From Cryptococcus deneoformans JEC21 (lineage: Eukaryota > Basidiomycota > Tremellomycetes > Tremellales > Cryptococcaceae), in contig NC_006679.1 of NCBI RefSeq assembly GCF_000091045.1, positions 970,041 to 1,034,040 on the forward strand: 64,000 nt of DNA. Reading direction: 5' to 3'. Made by a program: the position numbers and the translations under genes. A model generated the notes under the pieces. The model saw nothing but the letters and a program-made list of their open reading frames with translations, had not been told where the DNA came from and ran no database searches. Shown one piece after another: positions 41,145 through 44,231 of this stretch; position 1 is the stretch's first letter, and every line of letters starts with the position of its first letter.

Positions 41145-42476
41145 TCACTCCATCATAGCGCCAATAGCTTCACCAAATCTCCTTGCTCTCCTTGCAACTT
41201 CCCCTCTCTCACCCATCACTGTCAACCTTATGCTCACCCCTTCGAGCGCGGGATCATCATCCAAAGAAGGCGCAGGTGTGAGGGTGTATCGAGAAAAGGC
41301 GTAGTTGAGAATATACGTGTCGAAAGCCTTTGATGGGTTTGAAGGAGACATGAATCGAACGATACCTTTAACTCGATAGATTTCGTAAGAGAGCTTGGAC
41401 AGTTCCTTCTCCAAAAGCTCTCTCTCAATTGGCTCCACAGGTCCAACGTTCTCCTCAACTTCTGGCTTTTGACAATCTCCGCATTCCTTGCCTTCGCCTT
41501 TTCCTCCCACACGCTTGTGTTCATGTTTCGGCTTCTTCCCTTTATACACTCCCTTGACCTCCACTTCATCTCCATGCCATCCTTCTCTAGTCGCCATCTC
41601 GCCCCAATCTTTTCTTTCGCCATCCTTGACGGACCAGAGCTTGCTGTCAAGACCAAAGATGACTTCAGGCTTCGGTGGATTGGAAGGGGCGGGACCAATA
41701 CGGAGTTTAGGGGTCTCGTCGTTGAGATCGTTAAGACGGTCCAGGAGAGTGTCGAATTGACGTGGGTTGGGAAGGTGGTGTTTGTTGAGGAGGATGAGGT
41801 CGGTGTACTTGGCTTGCAACTGTCCCTTGTGATTAAACTTTTTTTCCAAGTTGGGTTTGCTAGGTAAACTCACTTTTGCACTAGGCGATGAATCTTCGTA
41901 TCCTTCAAAATTAACACAATCCACCACAGTCACAACGCCATCCAACTTGAATCCTTCAGGTTCAAGTTCCTTGATTTGCAAAGCCAATGTCGCAGGGAAG
42001 GCCGATCCGCTAGATTCGATAATGATTCGGTCGGGTTTCATTGTTGATTTGACTTCCATCAAAGCGTTGGAGATAAGTCCTACAGACGTGCAACAGAGAC
42101 AGCCGTTCAGAATTTCAGAAACGCCTGTGATGTTGGACTGAGAAGCAAGGACAGAATCGACTGCAAATGAAGGCGTTAGCTAACTATAAGTGTTTTTGAG
42201 GAGAAGCGGTCGCAAGCCCACCTTCAACGTCTCCATATTCATTCTTGAGCAGTACGACTTTGTACTCTTTCGGTAGTTGCTGGATAAGCGAAAGGATAGT
42301 TGTGGTCTTGCCCTGCTCCATCTGGTCAGCTCAGCGCTCTTTGCTTTGAACGCAAAATCCGGACATACAGCTCCTGTGGGCAAGTTAGGTTTTGTCCTCT
42401 CACTTTTCCCCCGTCACTTACCAAGAAATCCAGTAAAACAGGTCACAGGAATAGCCTCATCCTTCTCAAGCGTCAT
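41145..42476 (-). CDS. CobW/ZNG1-type GTPase metallochaperone
   Basis: Four exons, complement(41145..42160, 42222..42312, 42369..42373, 42422..42476), total 1,167 nt, 388 residues. Exon 3 in transcript order starts GGCAAGACC; the 5-nt exon GAGCT before it completes the Walker A as CFTGFLGAGKTTTIL. Switch/metal motif: EILNGCLCCTSVGLIS, the family CxCC. Walker B region is IIIESSG and VVTVVDCVNF; base recognition LLNKHHL. A His/Cys-rich insertion (KHEHKRVGGKGEGKECGDCQ) may bind metal. The CobW C-terminal domain shows IYRVKGIVRFMSP. Eukaryotic ZNG1 members deliver Zn to methionine aminopeptidase; that role is by family. Divergent from CIA1 with about 190 bp between the ATGs. Confidence 0.9.
42369..42373 (-). 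other. 5-nt coding micro-exon (GAGCT)
   Basis: Flanked by CCCACAG upstream and GTATGTCC downstream on the minus strand. It is the only joining I found that restores GFLGAGKTT between exon 1 (ends CTTG) and the exon starting GGCAAGACC. Flanking introns are 48 and 56 nt. Confidence 0.85.
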
Positions 42477-42666
42477 GTTTGCTGTGGTTATGGATACTGA
42501 AGAGAAGTAAAAGCGAGATTTATCAACATCAGAAGATTCGTTATCACCAAAAAAAAAAAAAGCCCAAAAAGTTCCACATCATCACGTTCAGCAGCAGTCG
42601 ATAACGGCGGAATCTCGAACCAAAAGATCCTCAACTTGACTTGTGCACGAAACAATATCTCTAAAA
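42477..42666. promoter_or_regulatory. Shared CIA1 / CobW-GTPase promoter
   Basis: 190 bp between divergent start codons, with an A-run at about 42549-42560. I recognise no specific factor site. Confidence 0.6.
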
Positions 42667-44231
42667 ATGCTTCGGCTCCAATCCCTGGGTTCCCTCCCGG
42701 CCCATGCCGAACCAGCTTGGACAGTATCTTTCAACCCTACCCGCTCTCTCCTCGCATCATGCTCCACAGATCGCACAATCCGTCTTTACTCCTACATTAT
42801 ACCCTCTTCCTCCGATGGTTTACCAAGCCAGGACGATTCCCAGGCCGTGTTTAGTCTTGCTAAGGTTATAGAAACGGACCACAAGAGGACTGTGAGGAGT
42901 ATAGCGTGGTCCCCTGATGGACGAACATTGGCAAGTGGGAGCTTTGATTCGACCGTCGGTGTGTGGGAGGAGGTTATTCCGCTTTCGGATGACGAAGAAG
43001 AAGAGGATGAGGGTGCACAAGGGGTGTATAAACCGGCTGGAGTGGACTCGGATGGAGATGGGGATGGGGGGAAAGAGAAGGAGTGGGAATGCGTGACGAC
43101 GTTGGAAGGGCATGAGAGTGAATGCAAATCGGTTGGGTTTTCGAGTGATGGGGCTCTGCTCGCGAGTTGCTCCAGAGATAAAAGTGTATGGGTGTGGGAA
43201 GGTAAGTCCAATGAAGTTTAATGATTATGAATGGTTCTAATGCTTGATTTGTTTATATATTTTTTTCGGTATAGTCCAACCGGACGCCGATTTTGAATGT
43301 ATCGCGGTCATGATGGAGCACTCTCAGGACGTCAAGTCCATCGCCTGGCACCCACACGAAGAGGTTTGTTCATTTTCGTTTATACCTTTCCCTTCATCTA
43401 TTTCTCAGGCATTTATTACCTCTTGAGACAACAATTGCTAACGTTGAATTGCGATACAGATCCTGGCTTCTGCGTCATACGACTCTTACATCCACCTCGC
43501 TTACGACGACCCCGATTCTGACTGGTGCATCTTCCAAAAACTCCATCCCTCTCTCCCTTCTACTCCACTCACCATCCCATCCACTTCCCCGTCACATTTA
43601 ATTGATGCGTTGGTTCCTACGGAAGAAGAGAAGAAGGCAGAGGCGGAGTTGCAAGTCCCGCCGTTGGAGGAGGATGAGACTGTTTGGTGTTTAGCTTGGA
43701 GTCCCGACGGGAGGTGGTTGGCTAGTGGAGGTGATAATGGTGGAATCCGTCTTTGGCAAAGAACGTATGTCTTTGTATCGTACACATTTCGAGACCAGAT
43801 GCCGGTAGTGACTGACTGTAACCTATTGCAATCACAGAGGCTCACAACCAGACTCGGCGTTCAAAGAGATCTTACACACCGCCGCTCACTCGCGTTCAGT
43901 CTTTTCTCTTTCTTGGTCCCCACCCTATCCATCCGCCGAGTCTGCCGGCTCCACCGACTCTACTGATTTAGGGATGCTCGCTTCTGCGGGGGAGGATGGT
44001 AAGATTATCATCTGGCAAATCACCGTCCCTCCATCTCCTTCTTCCGCTTCACAAGAAATAGATAATGAACAAATCTCGATCAGACCGATTGCCGCCCAGA
44101 AAGATGCGCACGGCGTGAACGATATCAACTCGGTAGCGTGGTGTGTGAGAGAAGATAAAAAGGGATGGGGGATGTTGAGTAGTGCGGGGGATGATGGGAG
44201 TGTCAAGGTTTGGAGGGTCGTCAGGGATTAA
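42667..44231 (+). CDS. CIA1: Cytosolic Fe-S assembly WD40 protein Cia1
   Basis: Four exons (42667..43201, 43275..43363, 43460..43764, 43838..44231) give 440 residues. WD repeats are evident: AWTVSFNPTRSLLASCSTDR with TIRLYS; RSIAWSPDGRTLASGSFDST with VGVWEE; SVGFSSDGALLASCSRDKSV; VKSIAWHPHEEILASASYDS; CLAWSPDGRWLASGGDNGGI with RLWQRT; LASAGEDGKIIIWQ; and NSVAWCVREDKKGWGMLSSA ending VKVWRV. Seven blades fit the Cia1/CIAO1 propeller, which in the CIA targeting complex hands Fe-S clusters to cytosolic and nuclear apoproteins. Acidic insertions lengthen blades 2 and 5. Start ATG chosen at MLRLQSLGSLPAH; an alternative lies eight codons upstream via CTG/ATG-like context and is less likely. Confidence 0.88.

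Follow-up and report, generated by a model that had tools for sequence, protein, structure and literature searches.

In Fusarium, the cytochrome P450 gene CYP621A is reported to contain a 1-nt exon that has RNA support and is conserved within the genus. The same paper cautions that exons of this kind escape annotation pipelines, and it also mentions an 8-nt exon in an I-helix motif (PMC12940212). In the P450 genes of Phanerochaete, the shortest exon reported has 6 bp (PMC1184071). A 5-nt micro-exon of rice was verified by RT-PCR sequencing (PMC8831610). In two Cryptococcus papers (PMC3990503, PMC8022950) the term micro-exon appears solely as a read-mapping option.

The window analyzed here is a stretch of 64,000 nucleotides of Cryptococcus deneoformans JEC21. 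It contains a GTPase gene whose nucleotide-binding P-loop (Walker A, GFLGAGKT) was proposed in the initial annotation to be completed by a 5-nt exon, GAGCT. The micro-exon is real, and three exons together encode the Walker A loop, with GAGCT as the middle one. The proposal is borne out by an enumeration of the possible splice forms, by the deposited protein P0002 and by the intact loops of P0001 and P0007. Judged by title and the start of the abstract, none of the literature matches listed describes this micro-exon, which may sit in the supplementary tables of Cryptococcus annotation papers.

Gene and exon-intron structure

The exons and introns of the gene are collected in Table 1. The interval 42313-42421 (109 nt) consists exactly of intron 1, the micro-exon and intron 2. 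The initial description of this interval, in which exon 1 ends in CTTG and GAGCT lies between a CAG acceptor and a GTATGT donor, agrees with these coordinates. Counting both ends, the distance from the branch adenosine to the end of the intron is 12 nt in intron 1 and 14 nt in intron 2. The N-terminus of the gene product is the same as that of the C. neoformans homologue P0001.

Table 1. Features of the window gene and of its upstream neighborhood (positions within the window)
Feature	Position	Strand	Description
Exon 1	42422..42476	-	55 nt; ATG at 42476; MTLEKDEAIPVTCFTGFL plus the first base of Gly19; ends CTTG
Intron 1	42374..42421	-	48 nt; GTAAGT...CTAAC...CAG
Micro-exon	42369..42373	-	5 nt, GAGCT; supplies bases 2 and 3 of the Gly19 codon and the complete Ala20 codon of GFLGAGKT
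Intron 2	42313..42368	-	56 nt; GTATGT...CTGAC...CAG; spliced out in P0002
Exon 3	42222..42312	-	91 nt; begins GGCAAGACC at 42312; GKTTTILSLIQQLP...
Intron 3	42161..42221	-	61 nt; GTGGGC...CTAAC...CAG; spliced out in P0002
Exon 4	41874..42160	-	287 nt; GCLCC metal-binding motif
Intron 4	41820..41873	-	54 nt; GTGAGT...TTAAT...CAG; in frame, stop-free; absent from P0001 and P0002
Exon 5 and stop	41145..41819	-	675 nt; end of the 370-aa protein
Common promoter	42477..42667		191 bp, shared with the divergent WD40 gene
Divergent WD40 gene	from 42668		WD40 score 106.6 bits

The coding sequence was initially given as 388 residues, a length that has to be corrected to 370, the in-frame intron of 54 nt having been overlooked. 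The longer form is rejected because intron 4 is missing from both P0001 and P0002; at this site the deposited P0001 reads SAKLQAKYTD where the 388-aa form carries 18 extra residues. Being in frame and without a stop, intron 4 is easily taken for coding sequence.

The neighboring gene on the other side of the common promoter resembles, in our assumption, CIA1 of iron-sulphur assembly.

The micro-exon and the reading frame

The splice forms from the ATG to intron 3 were enumerated with GT or GC donors, AG acceptors and introns of at least 35 nt. Those that stay open beyond 340 aa were searched for GxxxxGK[ST] close to the N-terminus. Altogether 5,366 one- and two-intron forms were enumerated, 905 of which are open, and GFLGAGKT is found in just one, the micro-exon form. 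The single-intron forms number 254, and GxxxxGK[ST] is present in 0 of the 23 that are open. The two-intron forms number 5,112, of which 882 are open and nine carry GxxxxGK[ST], GFLGAGKT being one of them. A second of the nine, GFLGQGKT, fits GxxGxGKT as well but depends on an exon of 2 nt, on GCTGTA as a GC donor and on GAG as the acceptor.

When GAGCT is skipped, the frame shifts after GFLG and a 42-residue peptide results, in keeping with the earlier prediction that skipping would inactivate the GTPase. The retention of intron 1 yields a product of 20 residues and that of intron 2 a product of 86 residues. Because each failure examined yields a short peptide, both intron removals are needed for the enzyme, and GAGCT is needed in every working mRNA.

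To estimate the contribution of chance, the interior of the gap was resampled 200,000 times from a first-order Markov chain between unchanged outer splice sites. A 5-mer that restores the P-loop, bounded by AG and GT and flanked by at least 40 nt, appears in 0.38% of the resamples, and in 0.067% when a GTRNG donor is added; none of the 200,000 has the restoring 5-mer, the GTRNG donor and both branch sites. Both strands of the window were also scanned for pairs of introns of 40-80 nt, with a GTRNG donor and a CTRAY branch, that enclose an exon of at most 10 nt. The GAGCT pair is the sole consensus pair of this kind in the window; the same scan of 40 first-order Markov copies gives a mean of 0.125 per strand. 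Markov controls of this type understate chance: in the 264-kb scan described below, the real sequence has roughly twice the number of consensus introns, 312 vs 153 in the copies. The true chance thus exceeds the Markov estimate, and the protein-level evidence is independent of it.

Evidence from the P0002 protein record

Read from GAGKTT to its last residue, P0002 is identical to the window product (352 of 352 residues), and introns 2, 3 and 4 are absent from it. Its N-terminal MPT corresponds to an in-frame TTG-CCC-ACA at the tail of intron 1, the TTG having been taken for a start codon of the bacterial type. Counted from this TTG, the intron-1-retained open reading frame has 355 residues, exactly the length of P0002. 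The record has the source code 'lgn', which we read as assemblies of archive reads, with 3 contigs, the longest of 2,176 bases, and 11 member sequences. The MPT start, the length and the absence of introns 2-4 together indicate that P0002 derives from a spliced RNA contig that keeps intron 1. P0002, which is a protein record, therefore carries the GAGCT|GGC join at intron 2, intron 1 itself being retained; the intron 1 join is predicted from the intact P0001 and P0007 together with the frame and the signals for splicing. The RNA from which P0002 derives had lost intron 2 while still containing intron 1, which makes the two introns separable.

Deposited proteins of related species

The survey of deposited models used 18 named Cryptococcus and Kwoniella rows from the 120 homologue rows listed, with P0002 left out and G[FYWL][LI]G[AS]GK[ST] as the Walker A pattern; each row represents a 90% cluster, whose members may carry other annotation. 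The pattern is intact in two of the 18 (P0001 and P0007) and broken in 16. The C5:241560 paralogue, with its P-loop inside one exon, has the pattern intact in 19 of the 19 named rows of the same genera. The expectation that gene finders would miss the exon is thereby confirmed, with 16/18 broken models for the window gene vs 0/19 for the paralogue. The remaining 101 of the 120 rows listed have the pattern intact in 95 (96 under a wider pattern), and the six exceptions are one GFLGLGKT and five models that start 3' of the loop. For the two genera, the outcome points to a systematic annotation error, with 16 of 18 representatives left without an intact nucleotide-binding loop, which would mislead comparative and structural work.

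The broken models differ in form. Six of the 18 rows, five carrying Ala and one Ser at the variable position, read GFLG[AS]V[RSGC], the sequence encoded when the micro-exon runs on into an unspliced GTRNGT donor. The other 10 of the 16 are without donor read-through and comprise late starts, IP-GKTS joins and other forms. The start of P0003 (C. gattii), MGQGKTT, is what translation from an ATG in the intron 2 tail would give; the window counterpart is MEQGKTT. P0012 begins MPIFSLGAGKTS and reads SLGAGKT, which is consistent with TTAG|GAGCN. P0011 has a late start; P0014, P0015, P0016 and P0019 join IP to GKTS; the disrupted loops of P0010, P0013 and P0021 fit none of these types.

Because six of the 16 broken models read through a GTRNGT donor, the micro-exon is probably shared and old. 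A common micro-exon would be the simplest cause of model errors at the same site across species, and these protein footprints suggest that it may be conserved across the relatives. P0032, P0034, P0050 and P0112, which include Tremellales sp. Uapishka_1 and Cryptotrichosporon argae, begin MVGLVENAL, 3' of the P-loop. With these four starts, the micro-exon may reach beyond Cryptococcus and Kwoniella.

Family assignment of the GTPase

In a profile search with the 388-aa form, PF02492 scores 126.8 bits (cut-off 20.7) and the CobW_C profile PF07683 scores 14.5 bits (cut-off 22). The closest solved structure is that of E. coli YjiA (E 5.9e-18). None of the bacterial CobW equivalogs (YjiA/PRK11537, CobW, ZigA) reaches its NCBIfam curated cut-off; the best NCBIfam model, NF008578, scores 92.8 bits vs 361, and ZigA 61.4 vs 600. 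The 370-aa protein contains the Walker A motif GFLGAGKT (GxxGxGK[ST]) and GCLCC (GCxCC), and Walker B (hhhExxG) reads IIIESSG, as checked on P0001. The NKx[DE] motif is replaced by NKHH in exon 5. Among the 120 subfamily rows listed, NKHH occurs in 7, NKHQ in 2 and NKWE in 74, and 22 have no pattern match; the nine NKHH/NKHQ rows are eight named Cryptococcus and Kwoniella rows and P0002. The paralogue has NKxD in 118 of the 120 rows listed. In these nine rows the acidic residue of NKx[DE] is lost and the nucleotide specificity may differ; NKHH is taken as divergence within the family because the other defining motifs hold.

The gene was initially labeled CobW/ZNG1. The CobW/COG0523 part of the label stands, and the ZNG1 part is rejected, since the paralogue search and a tree place the gene in another set. 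The tree comprises 34 rows (32 of 240 rows and two own genes), with human and yeast ZNG1 left out, and separates the set A of the window gene from the set B of C5:241560, which holds the rows named 'COBW domain-containing protein 1', with a support of 100/100. Some relatives of the window gene are named 'COBW domain-containing protein C15D4.05', and some of the paralogue 'COBW domain-containing protein 1', which we take to be the old name of ZNG1. ZNG1 has an N-terminal CPEL-type motif that binds MetAP1. This motif is absent from the N-terminus of the window gene product, MTLEKDEAIPVTCFTGFLG; the N-terminal region of the paralogue carries VPQL, which is weak taken alone. The likely ZNG1 orthologue is thus a different gene, G000:C5:241560, and the window gene is, as predicted from its motifs and its place in the tree, a COG0523/CobW nucleotide-dependent metal chaperone GTPase of another subfamily than ZNG1.

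A further gene, at G000:C1:1786106 (L010), is presumably UreG-like, and its P-loop, with GG in one open stretch and RPVGSGKT in the next part, a separate open stretch, is seemingly interrupted by an intron. Three kinds of COG0523 protein are also described in Aspergillus fumigatus (PMC12584730).

A candidate 8-nt exon in tryptophan synthase

Consensus intron pairs around exons of up to 12 nt were sought in 264 kb (the window and 200 kb from C1), which gave 4 pairs at 3 places, vs a mean of 0.55 (range 0-3) in 20 Markov copies. At L027:9663 (minus strand, G000:C1:1700001-1710000), an 8-nt exon, GACCAGGC, lies between introns of 46 and 45 nt and joins MAEQLKQVYADKKAQ to AFVTFLTAGFPT in tryptophan synthase. 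The product scores 85.7 bits with PF00290, and its alignment to a solved TrpA-type chain is gap-free. P0241, the protein deposited for C. deneoformans JEC21, includes the residues joined by GACCAGGC. At this site 10 of 12 Cryptococcus and Kwoniella rows are uninterrupted, P0241 among them; P0245 is shortened, and the P0249 model of K. newhampshirensis continues into the donor of the 8-nt exon. GACCAGGC is a probable 8-nt micro-exon. Two credible micro-exons in 264 kb suggest that more would turn up in a genome-wide census. The candidate at L018:7597 was rejected, because none of the frames read gave a product that was convincingly continuous.

Splicing model and alternative readings

The initial annotation held that a 5-nt exon needs unusual exon definition. 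This demand can be dropped: the introns on either side are short and complete, and because C. neoformans has many retained introns, intron definition is the predominant mode predicted for it (PMC2397502). Exon definition is dispensable because the introns of 48 and 56 nt can each be defined on their own. In the proposed mechanism, the spliceosome would pair the splice sites across intron 2 and excise it, fusing GAGCT to exon 3. Subsequently, intron 1 would be removed against a downstream exon of normal size, or the two steps could take place in the reverse order. Neither step would require the recognition of an isolated 5-nt exon. An obligatory 5-nt exon in the Walker A motif of a CobW-family protein, spliced by ordinary two-step intron definition, is very probably the explanation of the locus as a whole. 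We infer the two-step intron definition and the order of removal, the latter from one intermediate, P0002, which fits intron 2 leaving first. Against so simple a picture, the codon bias at exon ends and the SR-like proteins that a review describes for C. neoformans hint at exon-based regulation (PMC5851062).

The 109 nt could instead be a single intron or a twin intron (stwintron), a class known in fungi (PMC12403724), with no micro-exon. This is hardly credible, as the excision of all 109 nt gives CTT GGG CAA GAC, a frameshift and the 42-residue peptide, the open single-intron forms lack the motif, and P0002 has GAGKTT including the Gly-Ala of the micro-exon. A stwintron, with nested introns and no exon between them, is ruled out by the frame and by the 5 nt that P0002 keeps. 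The splice choice could also be a neighboring one. An intron 2 acceptor 9 nt upstream (GACCAG) would give GFLGAMEQGKTT, with MEQ, and a 2-nt exon GA would give GFLGQGKTT, with Q. Both forms are open; on the other hand, an intron that uses the GACCAG acceptor would end 4 nt past the branch adenosine, and the GA form depends on the weak donor GCTGTA and a GAG acceptor. MEQ or Q within an intact loop is found in 0 of the 18 deposited homologues (the MGQGKTT of P0003 being read as a start inside the intron), and P0002 reads GAGKTT. Since the homologues and P0002 lack them, these choices are judged highly improbable.

The remaining alternative accepts the exon and concerns its use. The retention of intron 1 or the skipping of GAGCT would be a regulated switch that tunes the amount of enzyme, for example with the zinc supply. 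The transcript behind P0002, with intron 1 retained and intron 2 spliced, does exist, and PMC5006051 is cited in favor of this reading. However, intron retention is very common in this organism, and a single intermediate is not evidence of regulation at the window gene; the switch is unlikely. A broader proposal builds on the obligatory exon. The 5-nt exon would couple the introns in an ordered, obligatory checkpoint in which intron 2 leaves first, the retention of intron 1 would be the regulated step that sets the amount of working chaperone, the arrangement would be ancestral to Cryptococcus and Kwoniella, and core metabolic enzymes of this lineage would use a set of micro-exons, such as the 5-nt exon of the window gene and the 8-nt exon of tryptophan synthase. 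Taken in full, this proposal is speculative and rather doubtful. The obligatory exon itself offers a clean test case in which a short-intron, intron-definition spliceosome meets an exon far below its own footprint, and every splicing error examined ends the protein early.

Comparison with known micro-exons

The tryptophan synthase exon shares the organism and the short-intron architecture of the window gene, but it has 8 nt, and gene finders coped with it far better (10/12 rows) than with GAGCT. Outside Cryptococcus, the Xlr2 gene of Trichoderma also has a fungal micro-exon, with intron 1 retained in some T. reesei transcripts; there the exon is described as an alternative switch in a transcription factor, whereas inclusion in the window gene looks obligatory (PMC11121469). 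The plant micro-exons of up to 15 nt are often misannotated, like GAGCT, and are conserved across species, as GAGCT may be; they belong to another kingdom and to other genes (PMC8831610). The micro-exons of the Phanerochaete P450 genes are found, as in the window gene, in a basidiomycete with short introns, but in a different gene family, and the part of that report available describes no exon of 5 nt (PMC1184071). The CYP621A exon of Fusarium resembles GAGCT as an ultra-small exon between two introns in a conserved enzyme motif; it differs in having 1 nt, in lying in the P450 PKG motif and in belonging to an ascomycete, whereas the window gene has 5 nt in the Walker A motif and belongs to a basidiomycete (PMC12940212). 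With exons of 1-8 nt in fungal enzymes already published (PMC12940212, PMC1184071), GAGCT extends a known kind.
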